Assembly (NCBI GenBank): GCA_037042915.1
Contig: CM073193.1
Location: 1,860,001-1,924,000, forward strand
Source of the DNA: Auricularia sp. M13
Lineage: Eukaryota > Basidiomycota > Agaricomycetes > Auriculariales > Auriculariaceae
Direction: 5' to 3'
Length of the DNA: 64,000 nt
Each line of letters opens with the position of its first letter. Within the stretch, counting starts at the first letter, position 1. The notes beneath the pieces were generated by a model that saw only the letters and a program-made list of their open reading frames with translations, had not been told where the DNA came from and searched no databases. Positions 6,265 through 63,800 of this stretch are shown one piece after another. A program made the position numbers and the translations under genes.

Positions 6265-7198
6265 CTACTCAGTCTTCGCCTTCAGCCCAGCACCGAGAAT
6301 CTCATCCACGCGCCGCTTGACCTCCTTGGCCAGGCGCTGCGTGGCCAGCAGGCCGTGCGGCGCCGCGGGCGGCGCCCAGCCGAGCTCGAACGGCAGCCGG
6401 TCCTCGCCGAACCACGCGCGCAGCTGCGCGGCGGGTGCGCTGTGCGAAGACGAGTTCGCGCTGCCATCGCTTACGCTGGCACGCGGACGCGCAAAGAGCG
6501 CAAAGGCGAGCGCGACCTCGCCGCGCGCGATGCGCGCGTGCAGGCCCGACAGCGGCCGCCCCGCCGCGACGGTCTCTCTATCGCGTTCCGCGCGCACCCG
6601 CGCCAAATCCGCCAGCGTCAACTCCCCCTCCCCACCACCAGCACCGGCCAGAAGGGACTCAACACGCCCCGGATCCGGCACCGTAGGCGCAAAAGCCGAA
6701 GTCGGGGACGGCGCGTCTGCGCGCGAGAGCGAGCCGTCGTGCTCGACGAGGTTGTGCTGCGCGAGGTCGCCGAGGTCGAAGGACGTGCGGCGCAGGAGGA
6801 GCAGCGCGCCGAGTGTGAGGAGGAGCGCGAGGGGCGTGGAGAGGTTGTACCCCGCGCGGAGGGCGCGGTAGGCCGTGAGGAAGGTTATGCGTTTGCCGTC
6901 GTGCGGGCTGTGAGTGGGCGGGGCGGGCGACAGCGAGTTCCGAGGGGCGAGGAGTGAGAGAGCAAGTTCGAGTAGCGAGAGAGCGAGTTATGGGTTGTGA
7001 GTTCGAGTCACGAGTATCGAGCAGAACACCAAACGAGGAGAGCAGAGCAAAGCAGGCAGCGCGTCAGCCTATCACAGCGCGTCGATATCGCGGGACGCAC
7101 AGGTATCCATGGTTGGCGAGCGAGTTGAGCGCGGGGCACGGCGAGCGGGAGTCGCCCGGCTGCGCGGGGCGGAAGGGGTGCAGGGCGGGCGCCGACAT
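6265..7198 (-). CDS. Short haem-thiolate peroxidase (chloroperoxidase/unspecific peroxygenase family), copy A
   Basis: Two exons: 7198-7101 and 6907-6265, joined in phase to give NHGYLPHDGKRITF (about 246 residues). Family members use H2O2 to oxygenate or halogenate aromatic and aliphatic substrates at a Cys-ligated haem. Signatures seen are SPCPALNSLANHGYLP near residue 20 (PCP Cys = axial haem ligand), EHDGSLSR near residue 85 (EHD motif at the haem propionate/Mg site), and the ARGEVALAFALF block that carries the likely acid-base Glu. A hydrophobic stretch (LALLLTLGALLLLRR) sits between the first two motifs. There is no N-terminal signal peptide, so an intracellular role is likely. Its 193-bp intron is long for this window. 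A diverged paralogue is at 33015-33760; both sit next to a P450. Confidence 0.85.
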
Positions 7199-7482
7199 CG
7201 ACGCAGAGAGCAGAGCAAGAAGGAGTGATCACGAAAACGCTGAACAGGGAACGAGATTTGAGCGCAGCGCAGCACCATCTGCATCATCGCCTGCGCAGCG
7301 GCGCTCGCGTGGCGCCGGGCCTACATAAATCATGCTCATAAGCAGTCATTGCCGGATACATATGATAAGTAGAGTAGTTCGCGTGCTGGTTGTGCGCTGG
7401 TATCATGTTTTTTTTGTGGGGCAGTGGGCCCCGAGAGGGGATATATACCGGGAGCGGTAACGCTGTGAGCGCTGGACGTTGC

Positions 7483-8215
7483 GGGTAACAGCACCGGTCC
7501 TAGTAGAGTAAAGCCGCGGAAATAGGACAACGAACTGAAACAAAGCAAGAGCTCGGATGAACAACCGAAGTAGTACCCGTACGCTCGCGTTACAGCCATA
7601 GCGACATCGCGACATAGCAAGCGTGAGCATATGGCAGGGCCATAGTTTGTAGATTATGGATATCCACGATGGCATGCATGTGTCGCCGGGCACGTTCGTC
7701 ACCCGGTAGTTGTCGCTACGCGCGTACGCTGCGGTTTAATCGCCCTCAGATATTCAGAGCCTGTGGTCACGGCGCGGCCAGAGTGGTGTACAGTTGAGCA
7801 AAGCGAAGTCTTGGAAACTCAAATTTAAAGTGAACGTCTGGCATTTGAATTGTCGGTGCGCATAGCGCTGGCGAGGAGGACGAGAAGGGACCCCAGACTC
7901 CGACTGGCATGACTTCCTTCCAACAGCTATTTCTCCTTCACATGTTCTTGGCGATAAAGACGCAATTCTTTCCAATTGTGGCTCTGGTGTTTACAATGGT
8001 GCACGCATGGTTTTTTCAAAGTACCCGAGGCCGCGTGAGAGGTACCATCGTGGTTCAACCCGCAAACGGCGCGTCGTGCGTAGCACGAATCAGGGACTCA
8101 GCCCGAGCATTGCGTGGTTTAATGTCGCATTCAAAAGCGGACGGATGGCTGACGAGAAGGTCAGCTTTCCAATGCGTTAGGGGTGCCGCTGTAGAACATA
8201 CGAGACAGCGCCACT
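7483..8215 (-). repeat. Inverted duplicate segment, copy 1 (P450 last exon plus downstream flank)
   Basis: Read on the minus strand, this block matches 34407-35137 on the plus strand at high identity and nearly equal length. It covers the last exon of the P450 at 8055-9882 (FECDIKPRNARAESLIRA) and about 570 bp of non-coding flank. The match stops at the CCGGTGCTGTTACCCGCAAC end. Beyond that the two loci differ. Confidence 0.85.
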
Positions 8216-9882
8216 GGAGTATTTGACGGTCGGTGTGATAGGAACCCCATCCTTGCCGACCTTCTTGCTGATCTGCAGCGTCGCGAGAACGTTGGAGAAT
8301 ACGAAAAACAGAGAGGATTCTGCGAGCTGACTGCCAGGGCAAACGCGCCGCCCGAATCCGAAGACGTAGTCGCGAGGATCGGGTTGCGGCTCGTCGCCGA
8401 GAAAGCGGCTGGGGTCGAACTTCTCCGGGTCAGGATAGACGGTCGCGTCTCGCGTGAACCCCCTATTTAAGAAATCATATGAGCCGCCGACGAAGCCTGG
8501 CATGCAATGCAAACTTACCAAATGTTTGGCATGAGCATGGAGAGTTTTGGGATGAAATAGCCGCCAAACGTGCCGTCCGCATTTGGACAGTGAGGAAGCG
8601 ACTGCGGGGAAACCGGAGCCCAGCGCAGGACCTCCTTGATCATAGCTTGAGTGTAGGGAAGTCGCTCGCGGTCTGTCCAAGTTGGGAGCACGTCCGGCCC
8701 CACGACACTGTCAATCTCGGCCTGCGCCTTCGCCTGGACGTCTGGGAAGAGCATCATGCAGAGGAAGAACGAAGCCATAGCCGAGACGGAGGTGTCCGCT
8801 CCGCCCGCATACATCGATTGGGCGGCCCAAGCTAGAAGGTCCGCGTCTTTCTGCTCGTCCCCATCCGACTTCATGAGCTCTGACGCAACGAAAGAGGGAA
8901 GTGCAGTTCCGGCAGCCTCGGGAGGAAATGGAAGGTAAGACCAGGAAATCTCCATTTCTGTAAATCACTGACCAAATGCTGCTTGACGAAGTTGATCGGT
9001 TTGGTGAGTGCGTCGTTCAAGCTTGCATGCATGCGATCGCCCTCGACCTTCCAGCCCGTCCCGGCGAACCAACGAGGCACGTACGCAACTACATATGGGT
9101 GTCGTCTGTGAGTTCGTATTGGACTGCTCGGGCCAAACGTACGCGCGGGAATGAGGTCCACCAGGAAGTTTCCCGTGATAGACCCCTTTATAATGTCATC
9201 GTTGACGGTTTCGGCTAGATTAACATATTCGTCGTCACCCGGCTTGACGTCGTATCCATAAACTATGCGCAGAATAAGGGTCCCCGCAAACCTCAAACGG
9301 CAGCTTCTCAGCCTCACTGAAACGAAACCCAGACGTGTACAGTACTTACTTGCGCAAATGGGCTCGCAGATTTTCGGGCGTATCGATAAGACGGAGTAAG
9401 AGCCTGCGCACTTCGTGTTCCTCGAGAGGAATATAGTTATCAAGCGCGGCGCGCGAGCCGACAGCCGAATAAAACAACCGGCGAGCGGGCTTGAAGTACG
9501 GGTGGTCGGCGTTGCACATTATGGGGCTGTTCTTCCATCCAATAATGTCGTGCACAAACCGCAGATGGGGGCGGTCAGAATAGACGGCGCCGCGCTCGTC
9601 CAGGATCGCCTTCGCGGTTTCCGGCGAGTTGAGCACTATGATATCCGTGCCCAGGACGTTCGCGTAGACAATGTCGCCGTACTGCTCGCGCCATTTGCAG
9701 TAGGTCAACCACTCTTGACTTGTCGGCCACGAGAAGAGGCTGCCAATAAGAGGGTAGCCCTTCGGACCAGGTGGAAGAGGTGCGCGAGACCGCTTGCGCG
9801 ACAAGGCGAGTAGAGCAGCGGTCGAGCACGCGCACGCCGCCGCCGCGAGTGCCAGCTGTCCTTTGGTGAATTCGAGAGGCAT
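8055..9882 (-). CDS. Cytochrome P450 monooxygenase, copy A
   Basis: This is a membrane-anchored haem monooxygenase that oxidises hydrophobic small molecules with electrons from a P450 reductase. The chosen ATG at 9882 gives an N-terminal anchor (LALAAAACACSTAALLALS) followed by basic residues and the PPGPKGYPLIGSL hinge. Later exons show the I-helix AGGADTS, the K-helix ExxR (KEVLRW), a YPDPEKFDPSRFL segment and the haem loop FGFGRRVCPGSQLAE with its Cys ligand. The last exon ends FECDIKPRNARAESLIRATH. Exon 1 ends at 9350 in phase 2, the same position and phase as in copy B at 35288-37096. All family landmarks are intact. The ending resembles the large Agaricomycete group of O-methylsterigmatocystin-oxidoreductase-like P450s; I cannot assign a CYP number or substrate. 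Confidence 0.9.
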
Positions 9883-10639
9883 AAGCAGAGCAAAGGGAAG
9901 CAGTTTGCGACTGTTGCCTCCAAACAGTTCGCGTCTGATTGCCGACACCCGACGGTGAAGAAGGGCTAAAGACGAGCTGCCGAGATGCCTATAGAAGGAA
10001 AATTTGGCGAGGACGAGCCTTCCAAGTTCCTGATGGAAAGGTGCATTGCCATGACTCCATTATTCGAGGCCCCAGGACGAGCGCAAGCGGTCGAGCATGC
10101 CAGGAGCGCGCAGAAGAATGCAACGAGTTGAAGACACGCACACAAAAAAACGAGTCGGCACCGTTCATCTGTCCTTCGACAGCCACCCTGAGTGTGTCCT
10201 ATTGCAGCTAAGCTCCAGGATGCAGTGGCGGTTACAGTATGGGCTGGGATGCTGTCGAACAGGAGCCGTCTGCTGTCAAGCTCATCACGTGTCATAAAAC
10301 TCCGCCCTAAAACGCGTCCGGACCCTGAAGTGACAGATGGCCGTCCAATTTCGTAGGAACTCCCCAGCTTCAGGCAGTTTTTCGAAATCCCCAAGGTCCA
10401 AGAATCATTTTCCTCCAATTAACCGTTGTGAAGACACGGTGCTCATGCCAAGTTTCAGCCGAATGCGCAATGTACAATTTTGCGACTGTCATCTGTGCTC
10501 AGCTTCGCTCCACCGGAAAGACGAGGGAGAAAATACAGCCATGGAATTTCTATGATTATCATGACTACGTTCTCGACAGGCGCGTTTAATGTATTGCACG
10601 CGGAGAAAAATATCCAAGCCTGCAGTAGACTCAGAGTAA
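9883..10639. other. Intergenic, P450 promoter and MFS 3' flank
   Basis: This holds the upstream region of P450 copy A and the 3' flank of the MFS gene, both on the minus strand. No convincing TATA box or extra gene was found. Confidence 0.45.
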
Positions 10640-12660
10640 TCAGAACTTGCCCCGGAGTACGTGCCCTGTAACGGCCCATTTCGAGATGGCCATAAGTGCG
10701 GTTCCAACGAGAACCATCGTGCCTAAGCAACGTCAGTTACAGTAAAGAACTCACTGACTGAGTACCTGGCCCCGCGGAACGAACCTGCAAAGGCACCAAG
10801 ATTGACGTAGCTTCCCGTCGCAGACGCAATGGCTCCGCACGCCGGCGGGCCCGCGAGCGCCCCGAACGCCAGGATGGTGTTCTGCATCCCCGTTCTCCGC
10901 CCGACGTCTCCGTGCGCGCCTAGGTGCGCGATCGGCACGACGAGCAACGATACATACGTCCCCGACGCGAATCTTCAGGTTCATGTCACCGTCAGCCTGG
11001 GGCACGGTATCGAACGAAGGAATGAGGAGGAAACTTACCCGTACAGGATCGAGACGACGATGAGCGTTGGGTAAGAATGTGCAAACGGCCACGCATATGT
11101 CATAATCGCCGCGGCGACTGTCGAGGGGATCAGCGTGTTGACGGCGCCGATGCGGTCTCCCGTGAGCCCAGCCGCGAGCCGCCCCACTCCGGAGCTGGCG
11201 TTAGCTATGGAGATGAGGTAGAACGTCAAAGACGGGTCTATGCCGTGCGAGATGGCAGCAACATCCAGGTAGGTGAGCACTAGAAAGCCTTTCAGTACGA
11301 AAGCAAACAGACTGCGAGATCGACTGAGACTGAGGCACCTGCGTAGATTCCCAAGAAGCAGAAGAACGAAGACGCCACGTAAGCGCTGAACGCCGTATTT
11401 TTGAACGCGCGGAAGTTGAAGAGGCCCCCGGCGACTTTCACAGGAGGCAGACGGCGCCGCAGAGTCTGCATGTGTACGTTAGATTGGCGCTTATAATGAC
11501 TTAATTCCCGCATACTAAATTTGCTATTGCGAGCAGAGCTGCTATTATAAGTCCCATGATGCGTAAAGACCATTTAAACCTGGCAGCGTCAACGAATGCG
11601 TCAGTGGAGTGTATAAAACTGACCCTAGACTCTCTTGCAGCTTGCGGACGATGATAGGGAAAACCGTGCCCCCGACGGAGCTGCCGATAGCCACAATGCC
11701 GAAGGCGGTCGATCGGCGCTTTTTGACTGGATAGTATCAGTCATTTGACGCGCGAAAACGATGTGCGACGCACACCAGTGGGTCAAGACGGCCATGACGG
11801 GTCCGAATAAGCAACCGGAGGCAAGCTGGGCCGCTTCAGATAATGCAGAATGTCCACATGAAACGGTACTGACGCCAACGAGAATTCCTTGGACGAGGAG
11901 AAAGTGCCAGTACGTCGTGCACTCCGCGATGAGGAATACGGAGGCAACTTGAATGACCGACCAGAAGAGCTGGGGTAGACGATACCAGCCCAGGTCAAAC
12001 ATCCGTCCGGTAAGGAGACCCTACGTGAGGTATGAGTCATACTGGACGATGCGAAGGCGGTCAAATGACTCACAGGAAAGAAAACGAGAGAGTACTATAG
12101 CCACAAGATCAGCAGCCACGGCTTACGTTTAGAACTTGACTGAGCATACCTGAATGCTCCCAATCCATGCTCTGCCGTATTTTAGCTCCGTCGACGCATA
12201 GAATATGGACTGAGCTCACATGGTTGACGCCGGAGTGCCCTTGAGCCGTTCTTCCTCATACAGTGACTGGAACACGCCCCACGAGTTAGTAAAGCCAAAC
12301 CTAAGGACAAATGTGAGAGAAGTATTGCCGGGGTACAGAGAAATGAACATACGTTGCACAAGTCACGCATGCGGCCTAGGAATCATTGAGTTAGCCTGCG
12401 CAAACATTGAGGGGCTCATAACTCACCCCGAAGACCGTTGCCCATGCTCTAAGGCCGCCATCAGGATGGTCGTCGACTCCTGGGATGGGTCTGGCCTCCT
12501 CCAAAATGTTTTCGCCGTTGTTTGTCGTGTCGTCGCGCTTCTCATTCAGTTCGCCAGGCTTGTCAGGCTGCACGACGGCCGTCGCGCTCAACCGAGTGTG
12601 GCCCGAGTCAGCAGAAAGCCGCGAACTCGTAGCATGGTCCTGCGGTGCTTGCAGAGACAT
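10640..12660 (-). CDS. Major facilitator transporter, monocarboxylate (MCT/SLC16) type
   Basis: This is a multi-exon 12-helix transporter of the fungal MCT-like group, expected in the plasma membrane and moving small organic acids or related compounds. It starts MSLQAPQDHATSS with a polar cytosolic tail of about 70 residues. Then comes the group signature DGGLRAWATVFG, followed by GFTNSWGVFQSLYEEE and AWIGSIQ. Further exons give GLLTGRMFDLGWYRLPQ, ILVGVSTVSCGHSA, AFGIVAIGSSVGGTVFPII, the central loop RRRLPPVKVAGGLFN, ISHGIDPSLTFYLISIANA, GRLAAGLTGDRIG and GMQNTILAFGALAGPPACG. It ends KWAVTGHVLRGKF. The substrate cannot be told. It is co-oriented with the P450 and peroxidase, suggesting one functional neighbourhood. 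Its 5' part was copied to 33870-34405. Internal exon edges are approximate. Confidence 0.82.
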
Positions 12661-12700
12661 TGTTCGCGCGTCCTAGGACATGGAGGAGGGCAAAGTCGCG
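12147..12700 (-). repeat. Inverted duplicate segment, copy 1 (MFS 5' end)
   Basis: On the minus strand this block (5' leader, first exons and introns of the MFS gene) matches 33870-34405 on the plus strand at high identity. The other copy has short internal deletions. Homology also picks up a little further upstream, near 12795-12825, across a gap of about 75 bp that is missing from the other copy. Confidence 0.8.
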
Positions 12701-13165
12701 CCTTATGTAGCCCTCTCGTAACGCAGCCGAAGCCGATGGTGCCGAAGCTGTGCCGGTCCGGGATTTTTGGCTCATTGATCCGCTACGACCCTTTCCTCCG
12801 CACCGTGTCGGTGGTTGCAAATCTTCTCCGCTTGGCCTGGGTGGCGGATGCGATTTGTTCGACGACCAAGCCAGGTACTGGCCTAGTCGTCGACGCGCGT
12901 ACCCCTACCGCAGAACCTCAACAATCTTTTATACTTGGTCGGCCCACGTGTCCGAAACAGTCCCCAGACACGCACTGCACGCTACTCCTGGCTGCGACCC
13001 TCTGAACTGGCCACAATATTTGCAGATAATAGCTGACCACCTAAGTGGCAACACACAAAACGCCTCGCTCAGTCTCCTCTTCATCACTCTTGATGCTAAC
13101 TCATTGCTGCCTATTGTTCACCGTTCCACATAACTCCGTTCGTAACCACCTCCGCGCGCGCCTCC

Positions 13166-14602
13166 ATGGACGCCCTTTTACCTGACCGATTGCTATCTCG
13201 CTCATTCAACTGGCTTGACCTGAACTCCCTAGTGCGTTCTTCGCACGTCTCGCGGCGGTGGCGGGCACTCGCCCGAGAGCATCCGTCCTACTGGCAACAC
13301 ATCGAATTCGTCGACTCTGACGAGTATGACGGCTCCAAATCGCGACTTTCTGCGCACAAGGTTGCACGCTTTCAAGACCAACTTCGCCAAGGCGGGCTGC
13401 GTCGCATCAGCGTTGCAGTCGATATCGACTTTGGCTGCACAGACGTCGAGACAGATGTGTTTTGCCACATCAACGATCATCTGGACCGTGTCTACGCACT
13501 GACGCTGCACATTCCCGACGTGACCTTCATTGATGAGTTTGGTGCGCTTTCGAAGCCTGCTTTGGTCCTGCATTCGTTACATATCTGGCTATACCCTCTG
13601 GACATAGACCCGAGCTCCGGCCACGAGATACCTCCCCACTTGTTCGGTGGGCATGCTCCCAAGCTCTCGCGGATAATTCTGCAAGATCTCGACCTCATGC
13701 CTACCCAGCCGCGCGTTCCAGCGTTCCAAAATATCAACTACGTTCATTATTTTGCTATCGAAAAGGAGGATGAGTATCCTGCAGCCACAGTATTTGACGT
13801 TGCCTCCCTGTTTCCCAACTGCGCGCACCTCACATGGGTTGTTGGCGACGTGTCGATTCGAAACGGGGCTCCGAGAGCGCTTACGGAACAGCAGAAGGAA
13901 TCCTTCAAAGCGCTCCGTTCTGTGACATTACGCGCCAACGCAGTGGACGGGCGAGCTCTGGGCGGCTTTCCTCTTACGCTGTCGCGCAATCATGCAGTCA
14001 CCGCTACCGACATCCAAGGCGCCTGCCTGCGCGATCTCCTGCACGTGCGTAGCGCGTTCGAGCGTATCTACCTCGTCGTCGACCGCCCGACCGCCGACGA
14101 GACCCGGCTCACGTTCTTCGCGGACGGCCGCTCTCGGGCGGCGCACATCACACTCGTCCGCCAGCCCCAGCCGCTGTCCATCCTCAAGCCGTACATCGAC
14201 TGGACGCGCGTCCGCACGCTGCGCACCACGCTCTCAGACCTGTGCTGGAAGTTCTTCGTCGAGCTCTGCGACGGCGTGCTGCCCGCCGTGAAGCGGCTCT
14301 TCGTCACGCTCCCGGCGCGTGGGAAGATTCCCCCGATCTCTCGCCTCAAAGCGGTCGCGCCGCCGCTGAGCAGCCCGGCGCTCGAGCATGTGTTCTTCGA
14401 GACCGCGGGCCGCGAGACGCGCAAGCTGCGACAGAGCTGGCTGCAGGCGTTCGTCACGACGCGCTTGTGCCCGACCGACGCTGTGCACGTCGTCTTCGGC
14501 GCCGGAGTCGAGGTCGAAGTCGATCTGCCTGGTGCAAAGAACGAGCAGGAGGGGTGGGCGAAGAAGGAAATATTGGCCGTCTCTCGTGTTCTCGTCCTTT
14601 GA
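13166..14602 (+). CDS. F-box protein, single exon
   Basis: A 478-residue open frame without introns. The first about 45 residues read as an F-box: LLPDRLLSRSFNWLDL, then SLVRSSHVSRRWRALA and HPSYWQHIEF, the usual L-P/W pattern that binds Skp1. The rest is an alpha/beta region of the loose leucine-rich type common in Agaricomycete F-box proteins. By family role it would choose targets for an SCF ubiquitin ligase; the target is unknown. Such genes are greatly expanded and fast-evolving in mushrooms. The start is the first ATG of the frame and lies directly before the F-box. Confidence 0.85.
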   Translation: MDALLPDRLLSRSFNWLDLNSLVRSSHVSRRWRALAREHPSYWQHIEFVDSDEYDGSKSRLSAHKVARFQDQLRQGGLRRISVAVDIDFGCTDVETDVFCHINDHLDRVYALTLHIPDVTFIDEFGALSKPALVLHSLHIWLYPLDIDPSSGHEIPPHLFGGHAPKLSRIILQDLDLMPTQPRVPAFQNINYVHYFAIEKEDEYPAATVFDVASLFPNCAHLTWVVGDVSIRNGAPRALTEQQKESFKALRSVTLRANAVDGRALGGFPLTLSRNHAVTATDIQGACLRDLLHVRSAFERIYLVVDRPTADETRLTFFADGRSRAAHITLVRQPQPLSILKPYIDWTRVRTLRTTLSDLCWKFFVELCDGVLPAVKRLFVTLPARGKIPPISRLKAVAPPLSSPALEHVFFETAGRETRKLRQSWLQAFVTTRLCPTDAVHVVFGAGVEVEVDLPGAKNEQEGWAKKEILAVSRVLVL

Positions 14603-28526: not shown

Positions 28527-30297
28527 ATGTCCTTCGCGGTTCTCCGCGCGTTCGTTGTGACTCTGGCGGCAGCACGCCTTGCGTTTGGTGCCAGTGCGTG
28601 TATCACATGACTGTATGCCACGGCGTAGCTCACTCCGACGTCCGTAGCGTTGCCGGATGCCCTTCACACTTGCCCCAACAGCAAGGAGCGGGTGAAGAAT
28701 GTTCAGGTTGGAAATTTCTTCGTGTTCCCGTTTCATGTCCTCAAGTCCCCCACCGTCTAGTGCTGCGCATGGGCTGCCATCCGCGACGACTTCATCAACG
28801 ACCTCTTCGAAGGCGTCTGCGGCGAAGCTGCACACTCTGTCATTCGCATTGCGTTCCACGATGTAAGTCCGCTGGCTAGCTGGCTATGCTGCTAGCTTCT
28901 GACGTTTGTCGCAGGCCAGTACGTACCTTCAAATACAGCTATGCTTCGGGACTGCTTCTCATTCCAATCACAGTCGGATTCAGCGCATATGGAAACCTGT
29001 GAGTGCTTCCTCCATGTCCGAAAATGCGAATGTGAAACTAACCTTCAACCCCAGCGGTGGCGGCGCCGACGGCTCCATCATCCAGTTCGACGACATCGAG
29101 CTGGCCTACGGTAACTGCACAACTCCGCGCTCGACTTGACCTGTGCTGAATCGGCCTCAGCTGCAAACGCCGGTATCGACGAAATCGCGGCGGATCTTCG
29201 CCCGTTCGCAGACGCGCACGGGATCTCCTACGGTGACGCGTGCGTATGAAACGAAAACGGCAATTTCAGAAACATCCTAACACGCCGCACCGACTCAGGA
29301 TCCAGTTCGGTTCTTCCGTGGCTCTCTCCCTGTGCCCGGGCGCTCCAGTTGTGCAGACGTTTGTCGGCCGCAAGGTGTGTGGCAATCTGTCATTGAAGGC
29401 ACCGGAATCACGGACTCATCCACGGCGATACTATCAGAATGCCACAGCGCCGGCGCCGGACGGCACAGTACGCATCGTCCTTGCAACCCGTGCCCCTTGC
29501 GAAACTCACCGAAAAACCTCGCAGGTGCCCGAGCCGTTTAACTCGGTGACGCAGATCCTCGCACGGATGCAGGACGCCGGCTTCTCGTCCAAGGAGCTCA
29601 TCGCCTTGCTCGCGTCGCACTCGGTCGCCGCGCAGGACGAGATCGAGCCGGCGATTGCGCGCGCGCCGTTCGACAGCACGCCGGACGCGTTCGACCCGCA
29701 GGTGTACCTCGAGGTGCTCCTCAAGGGCGACGTGCTCCCCGCGAACCTCGGCCCCGGCCCCGGCGAGGTGCGCTCGCCGTTCGAGGGCGAGTTCCGCTTG
29801 GAGTCGGACTTTGCGCTCGCGCGCGACCCGCGCACGGCGTGCACGTGGCAGTCGTTCGTTAATGACCAGGCGGCCATGGCGAGGAAGTTTGCCACGGCCA
29901 TGGCGAAGCTGGCGCTCCTGGGACAGAACCCCCGCAAGCTGATCGACTGCACCGAAGTCATCGTATGTCTCGCGGTCTCCCTCCTCTCTCGATTCTGTCC
30001 GAACTTGCTGACACCCTTTGTTGCCACGCTAGCCGAAAGCGCCCGCGGCGAAGGCGAAGACTGCCATCATTCCTTCTGGCAGGACCAGCAAGGACATTGA
30101 GGCTTCCGTAAGTCATTGCTCCTTCTGACTGCATACAAATGTGCTGATTTTGGACCCGCCTCAGTGCCGTGGAACTGCGTTCCCCGCTCTCCCCACCGCG
30201 CGCGGACCTCCGCTCACCTCCGTTCCTCCTGTGTAAGCTCCATCCTGCTCGTTATGGAAGGCTAATGCTCACCTTTCTGCACAGTCCTGAGCAGTAG
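28527..30297 (+). CDS. Class II secreted haem peroxidase, atypical Mn-peroxidase-like
   Basis: An extracellular peroxidase of the lignin-attack family. The leader is MSFAVLRAFVVTLAAARLAF. Many short introns are removed to give CCAWAAIRDDFINDLFEG; GEAAHSVIRIAFHDAIGFS (distal Arg and His); GGGADGSIIQFDDIELAY (calcium-site region); LIALLASHSVAAQDEIEP (proximal His) with FDSTP; a typical C-terminal third; and a Cys-containing tail, CRGTAFPALPT ending PPVPEQ. Against Phanerochaete MnP1 numbering, the Mn ligands Glu35 (GEAAH) and Asp179 (six residues after the proximal His) are present, but Glu39 is Ser. The exposed Trp of lignin and versatile peroxidases, five residues before the proximal His, is Ala. 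It is therefore either an atypical short-type MnP or a generic low-potential peroxidase. The gene appears intact. Confidence 0.88.
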
Positions 30298-30622
30298 ACG
30301 TCGTACTCACGACATAATAACAGTTGCTCGCTGATGTTTCTCCGGTAATTTGTGGATAACGCTCGTTGATAGCTCGCACATAATAGATTGCATCTCTGGT
30401 AGATGCTTCACGACTACAACTTCAGGAGCGAATTATAATTAGTATCCGATACGACGGCCCAAAGAATATATGGAGCACGCCCACTACACATCGCATTCGT
30501 TATACAAGTACAACTCTATGAGTCTGAAAAGCCGAGAGCGAAAACCAACTCCAGAGGACGGCACAAGTATTACATTGGCAGAATTCAAACCAGAAGATTA
30601 GCTTGGATTGAAGGCCGGTCAC
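30298..30622. other. Intergenic, convergent 3' ends
   Basis: AT-rich flank between the peroxidase and the LURP-one gene. No gene is seen. Confidence 0.4.
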
Positions 30623-33014: not shown

Positions 33015-33760
33015 ATGCACGCCCACGGTCACGACGCGCGTCCTGCGCTGCACGAGTACAACCCGCCGCAGTTCGACGACGTGCGCTCGCCGTGCCCCGC
33101 CCTCAACGCGCTCGCCAACCACTCCTACCTGTCCGTCTTCGTCTCCGTCTTCGTCCGTCGCGCCCACTGACACAGCGCAGCCCGCACAGCGGCCGCGACA
33201 TCTCGTTCTGGACGTCCGTGCAAGCGCTGCGCGACGTGTACAACCTCTCGCTGCTGCTCGCCGCGGTGCTCACGCTCGCCGGCTGCCTCCTCCGCGGCGG
33301 CCGCGGCTTCCGCCTCAGCTACAGCCTGGACGACCTGGCCGCGCACGGCGCGCACACGATCGAGCACGACGGCTCGCTCTCGCGCCCCGACGCGGCGCCC
33401 AACGCCCGCGCGGCGCCCTGCGCGCCCGACGCCGCGCGCCTCGCCGAGCTCTGTCCGCCCTCCGCCGCCACGCTGACGCTGGACGACCTCTGCCGCGTGC
33501 GGCGCGCGCGCGACCGCACGCTGGCGCGGCCGCTCGGCGCGTTCCACGCGGAGGTCGCGCGCGGCGAGGTCGCGCTGGCGCACGCGCTCTTCGCCGGCGC
33601 GGACGGTCTGGTGCCCGCCGAGCGCCTGCGCGCGTGGTTCGCGCAGGACCGCCTGCTGCCGGCATGGCGCCGGCCCGCGCGCACGATTGGCTTGTTCGAG
33701 GCTGCGCGCCGCGCGAGGGAGGTCAGGAGGCGCGTGGAGGCGCTTGCGAAGAGCGAGTGA
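33015..33760 (+). CDS. Short haem-thiolate peroxidase (chloroperoxidase/unspecific peroxygenase family), copy B
   Basis: Exons 33015-33130 and 33181-33760 encode about 231 residues. The intron sits at the same position and phase as in copy A (SYL|PHSGRDISF). Motifs are RSPCPALNALANHSYLP with the haem-ligand Cys, EHDGSLSR at the propionate/Mg site, and VARGEVALAHALF with the likely catalytic Glu. A Gly/Arg-rich hydrophobic stretch (LLLAAVLTLAGCLLRGG) follows the first motif. There is no signal peptide. Coding sequence is extremely GC-rich and Ala/Arg-heavy, more so than its neighbours. Copy A at 6265-7198 is clearly diverged, so the two are older than the near-identical flank next to this gene. 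Confidence 0.85.
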
Positions 33761-33869
33761 CGTTGCGAGTGGCATGATTCCAGCAGCTGGCTTACTTTCT
33801 TTTTTTGTGCACGCTACCTTAGATGGGATTGGTGAATGTAGGTCTGTAATGACATAGGAAAATTTGCAA

Positions 33870-34405
33870 CCACCGACACGCTACATAAGGCGTGACTTTG
33901 CCCTCCTCCATGTCCTAGGACGCGCGAACAATGCCTCTGCAAGTACCGCAGGACCATGCTACGAGCTCGCGGCTTTCTGCTGACTCGGGCCACGGTTGAG
34001 CGCGACGGCCGTCGCGCAGCCTGACACGACAAACAACGGCGAGAACATTTCGGAGGAGGCCAGACCCATCCCAGGAGTCGACGACCATCCTGATGGTGGC
34101 CTTAAAGCATGGGCAACGGTCTTCGGGGTGAGTTATGAGCCCCTCAATGTTCGCGCGGGCTAACTCAACGATTCCTAGGCCGCATGCGTGACTTGTGCAA
34201 CGTGTGTTCACACCTCTCTACCCCGGCGATACTTCTCTTACATTTGTCCTTAGGTTTGGCTTTACTAACTCGTGGCGCGTGTTCCAGTCACTGTACGAGG
34301 AGGAACGACTCAAGGACACTCCAACGTCAACCATGTGAGCTCAGTCCATATTCCATGCGTCGACGGAGCTAAAATCGGCAGAGCGTGGATTGGGAGCATT
34401 CAGGT
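33870..34405 (+). pseudogene. MFS transporter 5' relic
   Basis: A high-identity inverted copy of the leader and first exons of the MFS gene at 10640-12660. It starts MPLQVPQDHATSSRLSADSG from the ATG at 33930. It has a 4-bp loss after GGGCCAC, a loss of about 30 bp near 34025 and a loss of about 75 bp in the leader, so the frame is broken. It keeps the GLKAWATVFG block and the exon ending GSI, and then stops dead near 34404. Everything encoding helices beyond the first is missing. It cannot make a transporter. Confidence 0.8.
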
Positions 34406-34406
34406 A

Positions 34407-35137
34407 ATACAGCGGCACCCCTAACGCATTGGAAAACTGACCTTCTCGTCAGCCATCCGTCCGCTTTTGAATGCGACATTAAACCACGCAATGCTCGGGC
34501 TGAGTCCCTGATTCGTGCTACGCACGACGCGCCTTTTGCGGGTTGAACCACGATGCTACCTCTCACGCGGCCTCGGGTACTTTGAAAAAACCATGCGTGC
34601 ACCATTGTAAACACCAGAGCCACAATTGGAAAGAATTGCGTCTTTATCGCCAAGAACATGTGAAGGTGAAATAGCTGTTGGAAGGAAGTCATGCCAGTCG
34701 GAGTCTGTGGTCCCTTCTCTTCCTCCTCGCCAGCGGCCAGCGCTATGCGCACCGACAAGTCAACTGCCAGACGTTCACTTTAAATTTGAGTTTCCAAGAC
34801 TCCGCCTTGCTCAACTGTTCACCACCCTGGTCGCGCCGTGACCACAGGCTCTGAATATCTGAAGGCGATTGAACCGCAGCGTATGCGCGTAGCGACGAGT
34901 CGACGACTACCGGGTGACGGACGTACCCTGCGACGCATGCCATCGTGCATATCCATAACCCCGGAACTATGGCCTTGCCATTGCATCTGCTCACGCTTTC
35001 TATGTCGCAATGTCGCTATGACTGTAACGCGAGCGTACCCACCGGCTGTTCGTCCGAGCTCTTGCTTCGTTTGTTGCGCATTCACGCTCTATTTAAGCTT
35101 TACTGTACCAAAACGATCTACCGGTGCTGTTACCCGC
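34407..35137 (+). repeat. Inverted duplicate segment, copy 2 (P450 last exon plus flank)
   Basis: This matches 7483-8215 reversed. In this copy the non-coding part ends about 150 bp before the ATG of P450 copy B, so the downstream flank of copy A doubles here as upstream sequence of copy B. Confidence 0.85.
34408..34546 (+). pseudogene. P450 last-exon relic fused to the MFS relic
   Basis: Directly after the MFS relic comes the end of the last intron and the complete last exon of P450 copy A (HPSAFECDIKPRNARAESLI through PFAG and TGA), nearly base-perfect. The junction CAGGTA/ATACAGCGG shows that about 3.9 kb present in the first cluster was deleted between the two parts. No upstream P450 coding sequence is present. 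Confidence 0.8.
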
Positions 35138-35287
35138 AACGCGCGCGCTAACACTGTTGGCGTGCGGACCATGGGAATCGAAGGCGTCAATGCCTCAATA
35201 ATGTAGCCGGTGAAGCGCACAGTGCGCGCAGCTCTGTCGTTCGGCTTGGTGCCTCTCGGGTTGACGTCTCTCCACTACCTAGGCGTC

Positions 35288-37096
35288 ATGATCACGAGCT
35301 TAAGCACAGCGCAACTCGCCGTCGCTATCGCTGGTGCGGCCGCTGCACTTCTTGCCTGGTCGAACCGTTCTCGGAATCGTCTACCTCCCGGCCCCAGAGG
35401 CTACCCGCTTATCGGAAGCCTCTTAGCATGGCCTACACGCCAGGCATGGCTTACCTTCACCCAATGGCGCAAGACCTATGGCGACATCGTATATGCGAAC
35501 GTCGCAGGGACCCACTTCGTCGTGCTCAACTCGCTGCACATGGCAAAGGCTATTCTGGACGACGGCGGTGCCATTTACGCTGACCGGCCGCATCAGTATT
35601 TCCTCCAGGAAATCGTGGGCTGGAAGAACAGTCCTGCTATGTGCAAGCTCGGTCACCCGTTCTACAAGCCCGCGCGCCGGATGATGTACTCGGCCGTCGG
35701 CTCGCGCGCTGCGTTAGAAGGCTACATGGCGATGGAGCAGCATGAAGTCCATCGGTTTCTGCGCCGCGCAATCGACGATCCAGAATGTTTGAGCGCGCAT
35801 CTACGCAAGTGCGTGGGCTTTCTTACTTCGTATGTACTCTTTCTGACTGCCTGCACTCATAGACTTGCCGGTACGATCATCATGCGCCTTGTGTATGGTT
35901 ACGACGTCAAGCCGGGCGACGATGAATATGTCGACCTCGTCGAGAAAGTCATCCAGGACGTGATCAAAGCCGTGGTACCGGGAAACTACATGGTCGACTT
36001 CATCCCTGCACGTGCGTCTAACTATTATGTATATGCTTCACATCATGCTGACGACGCAAATTAGTCTCCTATGTACCCCGCTGGCTCCCCGGAACAGGTT
36101 GGAAGGTCGAAGGAGACCGCATGCGAGCGACACTAGACGAGGCCCTGTCGAAACCGATAAACTTTGTCAAGGGCCAGCTGGTGAGTAATGCTGCCGCGAA
36201 TTTTGGTCTCCCATTCTCACTATGTAGGCCGCTGGTGTCGCGCAAGCCTCTTTTGTCGGCTCAGAACTCATGCGACCAGATTGGGATGAGCATCAGGAAG
36301 GGGAAGTACTTGCTTGGACAGCTGAATCACTTTACAGCGGTGGCGCTGATACCTCCGTCGCGTCAAACTACACATTTTTCTTGTGCATGACGCTGTTCCC
36401 GGACGTTCAATCCATGGCCCAGGAGGAGATCGATCGAGTCATTGGCCCCGACGTCCTCCCAACATGGGATGACAGGGAGCGCCTTCCTTACGTCGAGGCG
36501 TTGATGAAGGAAGTCTTCCGCTGGGGACCCGTCGGTCCGTTGGCGATACCTCACTGTGCGAGCACCGAGGGGACCTTCAGAGGGTATGTTATCCCGAGAG
36601 GCACGGTAATCATTCCCAACGTATGGTACGTTCGTACACGGCGTCCCGCTCTCACCCAGCGGCTCACATAGCTCGGCAGGGGTATCACACGCGACGCGAC
36701 CATCTATCCTGACCCGGAACGCTTCGACCCCGCGCGCTTCCTCGGCGACCAGCCTCAAATGGATCCAGGAGAATACACATTCGGGTTCGGTCGGCGCGCC
36801 TGTCCGGGTCGCCAGCTAGCCGAAGTGTCGTTGTTCCTCGTTATTGCCAACTCGCTGGCCACGTTGAACATCAGCAAGAAAATCGGCCGTGATGGGAAGC
36901 CGATCGTGCCAACTGCAGAATACTTGAGCGACATTATATCGTGAGCCACTTGTGCGCGAATGATCTTTTTTGCACTCACGCCGTGACGTCTCTCCTCTCC
37001 AGCCATCCGGCCCCTTTCGAGTGTGACATCAAGCCTCGCGATAATCGCGCAGAGTCTCTCATTCGCGCTGTCCATGATGCGCCATTTGGCCACTGA
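35288..37096 (+). CDS. Cytochrome P450 monooxygenase, copy B
   Basis: Six exons fit: 35288-35808, 35863-36011, 36065-36180, 36228-36625, 36680-36940 and 37003-37096. The first ATG with an anchor is at 35288 (MITSLSTAQLAVAIAGAAAA), followed by LPPGPRGYPLIGSL. Landmarks are the I-helix SGGADTS, ExxR in KEVFRW, YPDPERFDPARFL, and the haem loop FGFGRRACPGRQLAE. The last exon reads HPAPFECDIKPRDNRAESLI and ends FGH. Every landmark is intact, and intron positions match copy A. Protein similarity to copy A is clear but moderate, unlike the near-identical flank between them. It probably sits in the ER and oxidises a lipophilic substrate; which one cannot be read. Confidence 0.92.
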
Positions 37097-60620: not shown

Positions 60621-62069
60621 GTTGAGGGATGGTTCTGAATGTAGGGAAAGCGAGTAGGTGCAGGTTCAAGGTGGGGTGGGAGAGGCTCGCACTGGCAGAC
60701 TGCGGGACTGTCCGGAAAGTTAAATATACCTACCTGTGCGTCCGCGAAGCATCCTTCTGTAGAATCTCTTGCCAGGACCTGCAGAGAAGAGGGGTGTTTG
60801 GAGCTGTCAGGTCCTCGGGGGACGCCGCCTGACAGCATTTGCAAGCTATTGACTTCTCCAAAGTCTCTGACACGTTGAACTGCCTAGCGAGGAACTGGCG
60901 GAGGAACGTAGCACTCCTCCGTCTCTCTCCATGTACAACAAAGAGAGATGGAGTCTTTTTCCTAGAGAACGATTAACAGGCCTCAAATCTGCTTGCCATG
61001 GAACAACACCCAAAGCGAAACAGGCGTTGGCCTCCGGAATGCACCCATAACAGCAGTACCAACCCTGCACGCTGGCACTGATGGGTGGGTGGCCTGCCGT
61101 GCAGAATACAAGCGAGGATCATGCATTCACAACCCCATCTGGCAGAGAATGTGCAGGGTGCGGACGCACATCAAAGAGCTCTGATAAATCTAGGTTGACT
61201 GGCGCTGACAGGGCATTCAGTCATTTAATCTAGATCTATGCAGCTGCCCGTTGCCACAAAATGGGCCCTGAGACCTGAGACCCGGTCCTGCTGTCAGAAC
61301 TCCCATGGATGTTGCTGCCGCGGAATGAAGGTATAACTGTCTGCGCTGTGGTTGAGCTGCATGACCATCTTCCAGACGATACTTCTCGTTTGTCAGATGC
61401 ATGGGGACAATGAGAGAGGCTCGTAGGCGGCTAGGGACCGTTGGGAATGCGTGCGCGATCCGCTGGACGCGCCAGAAGTTCTTTGACACAGGAATGACGC
61501 TTGCCTATATTATGTAGCATTGTGACGACGGCGGCGGGATACTCTCCCACCAGTGACAATCAATCCATCTTATAGACGCCTTCCATAACGTGTACAATGC
61601 TGATTGTGTTGCAGCGGCCGAACAGGAAGTCCTGCACCAGTCAAGTTCCTCAACGGCGTGCGTTCGAGACTTCCAGGGCACAGAGACTCAGACTATTACC
61701 GCAGGAATCCACATCCCACTCAGGCGATGGCTATCTAATATGGAAAGCCGGAGTGAGCTGCTTCAGAAGTGATGTGATCTGATGGTCTGTCGATGTAAGG
61801 GTCAATCCGCTTACTTGTGAATAAATGCCGAGATGCGTGAACTCTCCGGGGCTCGAGTCCGGGCACGCAAATGGAACGCGGGATCTTCGGATGTATTATG
61901 TAAGATCAGCCACCAACAAACACGGAGTCGTGTCAGTGGCTGTGTATCGAGCAATCGGGTTTGGAGTTGAGGGCGAGTGCGAGAGGAGCGGGAATTCAGG
62001 TTGAAAATAAGTTAATCATTCACAAGTCAGAAACCAAGCCTTAAATACAAACGAGGATATAGAAATAGA
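60621..62069. other. Intergenic, no supported gene
   Basis: About 1.45 kb. Short ORFs only; no domain or repeat recognised. Confidence 0.4.
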
Positions 62070-62071
62070 TA

Positions 62072-62714
62072 AGATAGCGGCCACATAGAATCCGCACCCC
62101 CCCCCCCCCCCCCCCGGTGATAGCCGATTCGGCTATCTCCGGCGCTGAAATTTTGGGTCATCCGGACCTTGGGAGCACCAATCAACTCAAAAGTCATTTT
62201 AAACGCATGTTGGAAAAACCCCTGATGAATATTATTTTCATAGGATCAAGTCTTACTCAAACAATACTTCTTCAACAGAGAGGGCAGTGGCTGGTGCTCT
62301 CCAAGCCATCCTGAAGCTGAGGAACCTTGGGGAAACCAGCGGGCGACGGGCAGCAGTGAACGGAAGCTGATCAATTCCGTCCCGGCTCCGAGCCAAATGC
62401 AGCCGGAAAGGGCCCGATCAGCTTATATAATCATATAAGCGCCCGCTGAAATCTGAGGACCCAAAACTCATGTTGACTCGGAACTTGCTGAAAAGCTTCA
62501 AAAGACACTTAGCCACTTTTTTAATAAAACTTATATTCTCAAGGTTTGAATCAGTATTTCTCAAAATCCCTCTATCACTTTGCTCTACCCTTCCTTCCGA
62601 AGGTTTTGATCAAGCCACTAAGAGAGATACCCTGTGGTTGTCGAGGAATAGCGTGTCTAAGTCGGCGGTTATCGGAATTAGCCGGGGGGTGCGGATTCTA
62701 TGTGGCCGCTATCT
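62072..62714. mobile_element. 643-bp non-autonomous TIR element with long perfect ends
   Basis: The outer 31 bp of each end are perfect inverted repeats, starting AGATAGCGGCCACATAGAAT and finishing in six C (left) or six G (right). The similarity continues, weaker, into the interior. TA dinucleotides flank both ends (62070-62071 and 62715-62716), which fits a TA target-site duplication of Tc1/mariner type; this is inference. The interior is AT-richer, with only an 87-codon ORF and no transposase. The left C run is expanded to 19 (62097-62115) against 6 on the right. Perfect ends suggest recent activity of a related autonomous copy elsewhere. Confidence 0.75.
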
Positions 62715-62716
62715 TA

Positions 62717-63800
62717 TAGCGGGGAGGTGCTAGTGTAGAGGGGAACCGAGTGGATCCTTCTGGGAGGTTCTCCTCAGTCCGACCAACTCGTCCGGTTACA
62801 GTCGAGCTCAGTGAAGCACGGAGCATTCTCACAATCACCGCAGCATACTCAGTGCATCTTAAGGCCATCACCGTCAGAGTCGAAGTTGATGATATCTTGA
62901 AGCCAGTACGTCGACCGAGGAAGCAACCAAACTCGGCTCTCGAACGAGAGCGAGTACCCCGACTGCTCTCGTAAGACTCCATCTAAATGCGGTGAGAAGG
63001 AAGGTCACTTGATGAGATTGAGATGGTAAATAAAAGCTCGACTTTGTTAGTTTACAGTTACTCATACCAATGTGAAAGCAGTCTATTTCTCAAGCAACCG
63101 AACAGCACCGAAAAGTAAATGAGCTGACCTGTAAATATTTATGAGTCGACCAGGTCGCATCTACGATATGAAATGTAGCACACCTTTGACTCAGTGTCGG
63201 AGGAGGCAGGTGCGGGCGCGGCCGGATCGATTGACGGTTTGACCACAGTTGCGAGCGCGTCGTCTTGGCCTTGCTATCCTACTTTGCTCTTGAACCACCA
63301 TCCGAGTATCTACAATGAAGTTCCATTCCTGTGTCTGCATAATACCCTAATGACTGAATTAATCTGCCAGATTTGTTCACAGATACTGCAGCGAGCTCAC
63401 CCGGTCCACCGCACTTCAGAATGCATCGCATGCTGACCAGAGACTGGCGAGCACAGGCACACCAGCAGGCATGGACGCGCCTATTGACAGCGATGACAAC
63501 CAGCATTGTGTTCGCAGCCATGCCATTGCTTTCGCAATGGTGCCGACCGCTGTCGCAAGGACCGGTGGCGCGTGTTCCAAAGGGCATGCATCAAGACTCG
63601 GGCGCTGGCAAGCCCGCCTCGCACGATGCACAGGTGGTCTTCCTGGTGGCGGACTATGCTTCTTAAAGTGTACATTTATTATTGCCCACTGAAAAGGGGG
63701 TGTCACACAAACTTGGGTGTCTCTCACCTGTATAAAGTGTGGGAAAATCACTTTTGACGTTCGGACACACTCAGTTGGAGTGTGGACACACTTTGTCAGC
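62717..63800. other. Right flank, no supported gene
   Basis: Short ORFs at 62750-62974 and 63470-63690 look weakly protein-like (SHAIAFAMVPTAVARTGGAC) but have no recognised domain or clean start. Confidence 0.35.

Follow-up and report, generated by a model that had tools for sequence, protein, structure and literature searches.

The 64,000-nucleotide stretch of Auricularia sp. M13 DNA analysed here (the window; GC content 57%) contains two loci at which P450 and Peroxidase_2 genes are found together (Table 1). At locus A, MFS_A and P450_A each have an uninterrupted reading frame and a match to a Pfam family; the copied module discussed below ends 278 bp before the start codon of Peroxidase_2 A. 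At locus B, a relic of this MFS-P450 pair lies between Peroxidase_2 B and P450_B, and all three are on the plus strand. Gene models were built by hand without transcripts.

Table 1. Features of loci A and B (positions in the window)
Feature	Positions	Strand	Remarks
Peroxidase_2 A (chloroperoxidase-type family by Pfam)	6265-7198	-	246 aa; downstream of P450_A
A counterpart: part of P450_A intron 5, last exon, 3' flank	7477-8193	-	BLASTN, alignment, edge search
P450_A	8055-9882	-	516 aa; hand model, 5 introns; Pfam p450
A stretch without counterpart in the relic (rest of MFS_A, most of P450_A)	8194-12146	-	3,953 bp
MFS_A	10640-12660	-	477 aa; hand model, 11 introns; Pfam MFS_1
A counterpart: MFS_A 5' flank and exons 1-4	12147-12822	-	BLASTN, alignment, edge search
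Peroxidase_2 B, left neighbour of the relic	33015-33760	+	231 aa; Pfam
Whole relic	33862-35141	inverted relative to A	~1.28 kb; counterparts A 12822-12147, then 8193-7477
MFS_A 5' relic (5' flank, exons 1-4, introns 1-3, first 3 bases of intron 4)	33862-34406	+	copy of 12822-12147, minus strand
Hybrid 49-bp intron	34404-34452	+	MFS_A intron 4 donor, remainder P450_A intron 5; unmatched base 34407
P450_A relic (part of last intron, last exon 34453-34546 with stop, 3' flank)	34408-35141	+	copy of 8193-7477, minus strand
Spacer between relic and P450_B start codon	35142-35287	+	146 bp
P450_B, right neighbour of the relic	35288-37096	+	512 aa; hand model, 5 introns, open from start to stop

Two further features of the window were noted. 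A class II peroxidase gene (~28527-30300, limits by eye) has manganese and versatile peroxidases as its best solved-structure matches (best 60 of 108), likely indicating a basidiomycete of the wood-rot type. At 62069-62717 lies a 649-bp element with 34-bp perfect terminal inverted repeats, of which two more copies, ~96% identical, occur on other contigs (C3:1497222-1497858 and C6:1664240-1664873), while matches resembling its ends stand ~3.26 kb apart on both C8 and C11. These features suggest that the element is a MITE and that the C8 and C11 matches may represent a longer relative.

The relic corresponds to the MFS_A/P450_A module at 7477-12822, ~21 kb distant, of which it is a single inverted and collinear copy. 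The first-pass annotation of this DNA had described an internally deleted, inverted copy of the MFS-P450 locus, and both base-level alignment and a self-BLASTN of the window bear this description out. Two collinear inverted blocks are present: 12147-12531 and 12561-12711 match 34406-33880 on the minus strand at ~94% identity (E 6.8e-165 and 2.9e-59), and 7538-8193 matches 35072-34408, likewise on the minus strand, at 90.5% counting gaps (E 0.0). These matches are far beyond chance. Two blocks that are distant in A are indeed fused in B, as had been proposed, but the opposite orientation ascribed to them holds only for the copy relative to A: both keep the order and relative orientation that they have in A, and the copy is inverted only as a whole. 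The limits first given, 33870-35137, were right to within 8 bp, the copy reaching 8 bp beyond the left one and 4 bp beyond the right one. Our limits come from base-level alignment extended by edge-pattern searches, the free ends of the alignment carrying no meaning. Nor are the blocks "nearly identical", as had been stated, since aligned sites are ~95% identical and indels are many. At the outer edge, 22 bases are identical between 35120-35141 and 7477-7498 while the adjacent ~50 bp align poorly, which may reflect chance or a kept element.

A search of the whole genome (52 Mb in 14 contigs) with the relic block returned four matches, namely the block itself, the two A pieces and one match on C2, with no further full copy. 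The C2 match (77% over query positions 554-749, 196 bases) falls on a P450 paralogue, in its last exon and the flank next to it.

Alignment confirms the join proposed at CAGGTA/TACAGCGG, with one addition. The relic reads CAGGTA, corresponding to A down to 12147, then an unmatched A at 34407, then TACAGCGG, corresponding to A from 8193. Both ends of the missing 3,953 bp fall at intron donors, as MFS_A intron 4 and P450_A intron 5 each start with GTATG. Three bases (GTA) are shared at the B junction and five (GTATG) between the two A breakpoints; when 50,000 breakpoint pairs were drawn at random in the two genes, three or more bases were shared by 5.4% of them and five or more by 0.6%, figures to be read in the knowledge that the intron-donor coincidence was spotted post hoc. 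End-joining at a short shared sequence would be a reasonable cause of such a deletion.

Besides the 3,953 bp (A 12146-8194), four shorter stretches are absent from the relic: 93 bp ahead of the MFS start, two pieces of MFS exon 1 (4 and 33 bp) and a single base pair of MFS intron 3. All four small indels of the MFS part are thus losses in B, while the 12 indels of the P450 flank divide evenly, six missing in A and six in B (12 of 13 rows of the gap list, the remaining row, "3 bp missing in A at 34408", being a cut-site artefact and excluded). Such a pattern is expected if the A genes have been maintained. The 4-bp loss shifts the relic MFS frame, so that reading from its start codon ends after 22 residues, and in a relic transcript spliced as it stands every one of the three frames would meet 4 to 6 stops within the first 450 nt. 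Decay is not far advanced, as single MFS exons can still be read piecewise; the frame of the relic exon at 33996-34133 is stop-free and 89% identical to MFS_A. As the relic still has MFS introns 1-3 and most of P450 intron 5, the module was copied as DNA and is not a retrocopy. The relic is a pseudogene of both genes, without protein function.

Substitutions separate the relic from A at 5.3% of sites (63/1187). The MFS block (5.1%, 28/545 aligned sites) and the P450 block (5.5%, 38/690, a count that omits three identical bases because of the cut made in the A sequence) diverge similarly, and the MFS exons carry eight synonymous and eight non-synonymous differences. By a simple counting method, P450_A and P450_B have a Ks of ~2.1 and 65.6% amino-acid identity, and the two Peroxidase_2 genes a Ks of ~0.86 and 57.3% protein identity. 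The comparison of the flank with the coding pairs, which had been suggested as a check, points to a copy much younger than the neighbouring paralogue pairs, in agreement with the first-pass annotation.

That this young copy landed on an older duplicated locus, as the first-pass annotation had it, holds only in part. Peroxidase_2 A and B are reciprocal best non-self matches in the genome, in keeping with an older duplication. P450_A, however, groups with the C2 paralogue rather than with P450_B (support 1.0) in a rough tree of six sequences, four of them pieced together from tblastn and the C2 sequence broken and on a long branch. Its identity is 70.0% to the C2 paralogue, 66.7% to a C9 paralogue and 65.6% to P450_B. 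Gene order differs as well, Peroxidase_2 lying downstream of P450_A in A and upstream of the relic in B. Given this grouping and the differing gene order, loci A and B need not share one older duplication, and a single older duplication of the whole P450/peroxidase locus fits the peroxidases but not the rough P450 tree.

Other members of these families were observed elsewhere in the genome. At C2:1105200-1115100, the first exon of the closest P450_A paralogue is split by ~1.2 kb of other sequence, and ~1.3 kb from this P450 is a gene that by eye resembles a terpene synthase. At C9:814328-819997, an MFS gene with ~30% identity to MFS_A has another P450 of this family ~2.6 kb away; P450 and MFS genes are thus neighbours at more than one place in the genome. 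C9:801187-822152 and C12:113001-142999 share long stretches 97-99% identical, as if allelic or recently duplicated; on C12, ~9.8 kb of extra sequence sits inside an MFS gene, with a 6-bp overlap of its ends as a possible target site duplication.

We regard segmental duplication followed by decay as highly probable, its simplest form being one inverted, linked duplication of DNA plus a later deletion. An MFS-P450 pair of ~5.3 kb with its flanks would have been duplicated at the DNA level, in inverted orientation, between sites ~21 kb apart on the same chromosome. The copy at B would then have decayed through a 3,953-bp deletion that fused MFS intron 4 with P450 intron 5 where their GTATG donors resemble each other, and smaller deletions would have broken the MFS frame, leaving a 1.28-kb double pseudogene between Peroxidase_2 B and P450_B. 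We infer that duplication preceded deletion.

The edges of the copy were also searched in the genome. Allowing up to two mismatches, the left-edge 18-mer occurs at just these two loci, and the right-edge 22-mer has two exact places (A and B) and two with three mismatches. A genome search with 12711-13200 found nothing else similar, so that past the missing 93 bp only the left-edge 18 bp are included in the copy. Between the 15-bp flanks no shared word of at least five bases was found at either B or A, one 4-mer being shared at A, and neither the 345 bp left of the A module nor the 102 bp after Peroxidase_2 B has any similarity at E 0.01 to the rest of the window or the ten loci compared. With edges that are not repeated in the genome and no target site duplication found, a copy carried by a transposon was discarded.

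Within this account the direction of copying may be the reverse of the A-to-B order taken in the first-pass annotation. The original pair would have stood at B, beside P450_B, with A as its copy and B as the version that decayed. The relic P450 and P450_B would then become ordinary tandem neighbours on the same strand, and none of our findings excludes this order; positive evidence for it is likewise lacking. We hold this variant, which is compatible with duplication and decay, to be a distinct possibility of somewhat less than even probability.

Repair by template switching, in which both pieces were drawn from one locus into a break in a single discontinuous event, would mean that the 3,953 bp were never in B. 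It would fit the order, orientation and similar divergence of the blocks equally well, could make use of the three to five bases shared at the main join, and has a counterpart in the discontinuous duplications mixed with deletions that PMC2621351 describes. However, it explains nothing beyond what a copy and a deletion explain, and the four other stretches absent from B indicate that deletion has been active there. We consider it unlikely.

Gene conversion between older paralogous loci, in place of a new insertion, appears less probable still. The first-pass annotation had left "copy or conversion" open. Peroxidase_2 and P450 paralogues do exist at both sites, and divergence is uneven along the relic: the most conserved tract takes in the last exon of the P450 and the 3' flank next to it (34408-34750, 6/333 aligned sites differing), while 34751-35072 differs at 8 to 12% of sites. 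In a scan of 250 sites at a time, differences ranged from 3 (34386-34639) to 26 (34790-35052), with permutation fractions of 0.0085 for the low and 0.0065 for the high extreme (n=2000). A later conversion tract, or two events, could produce this unevenness, though conversion is not needed to explain the relic. However, P450_B retains its own complete last exon (37003-37096), the relic standing beside it rather than overwriting it, gene order differs between the loci, and an older MFS gene was not seen at B. Conversion over older P450_B sequence was accordingly rejected as the main explanation.

An assembly artefact at the junction is very improbable. The near-identical stretches on C9 and C12 suggest that the assembly may hold allelic or otherwise duplicated sequence, but on either side of the join the relic is ~5% different from A, and it carries indels of its own, and so is not misplaced A sequence; nor did the genome search find another full copy. 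Least credible is a working chimeric MFS-P450 gene created by the deletion: although both breakpoints lie at intron donors and the hybrid intron retains a GT donor and the P450 acceptor, the frames led to its rejection. When the relic transcript is spliced as it stands, no start-codon frame of more than 18 residues crosses the join, and reading from the MFS start meets the early stop described above. The P450 last exon would contribute just 30 residues and lack the heme-binding cysteine, which by its motif falls in the preceding exon of the P450_A hand model.

Duplication and decay leave the copied 3' flank of P450_A just upstream of P450_B, and a contribution of this flank to the P450_B promoter, as first suggested by the annotation, is plausible from its position. 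At E 0.01, BLASTN finds nothing similar to the 146-bp spacer, or to the 280 bp before Peroxidase_2 A, among the ten loci compared or elsewhere in the window, and the spacer contains no TATA-like motif among four patterns scanned. The sequence TATTTAA, 198 bp before the P450_B start and inside the copied block, is the only such motif in the 400 bp upstream of the gene (same four patterns, that strand), and A reads differently there. As TATA-like motifs occur in the window at ~0.3 per kb per strand, a single motif in 400 bp is weak evidence. In A, the copied flank makes up the intergenic DNA ahead of Peroxidase_2 A, stopping 29 bp short of the TATATAT of that gene. That the flank acts as the upstream control region of P450_B seems doubtful; if it did, the duplication may have placed P450_B and Peroxidase_2 A under shared upstream sequence. 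The P450_B model has no nonsense changes and no frameshifts, where a rough argument predicts ~1.3-2.5 and ~9, respectively, had the gene been unconstrained since the copy arose. P450_B has thus probably remained in use with the relic upstream.

Taken alone, the relic is a routine product of copying and decay, found in a fungal genome rich in P450 genes. Its interest would be modest: if the flank does drive P450_B, as an instance of a gene borrowing regulatory sequence from a decaying neighbour, and as a putative case of a deletion that exploited intron-donor sequence common to both genes. Among the papers listed by the literature searches, none names the locus in its title or abstract opening, although we do not claim its absence from print.

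Several known processes offer comparisons. Repair-mediated duplication by capture of nearby chromosomal DNA has been described for closely linked human duplications of up to 619 bp, with RDs in other vertebrates (PMC2671141). Like the duplicates treated there, the relic is intra-chromosomal, closely linked, genic and not derived from a transposon; unlike them, it has a source span of ~5.3 kb and a fungal host. Microhomology-mediated break-induced replication, as modelled in PMC2621351, would yield a discontinuous duplication with short shared sequence at the join, but is not needed for the relic, as a copy and a deletion cover the same data. The closest likeness is to segmental duplication of a gene pair followed by pseudogenisation. 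As in such cases, the collinearity of the relic with an intact source extends beyond a single gene, introns and flanks are retained, and coding capacity has been lost through a broken frame and internal deletions. The relic differs only in detail, being inverted, ~21 kb away from its counterpart and marked by a main deletion that joins two intron donors, and is an ordinary new instance of segmental duplication and decay.
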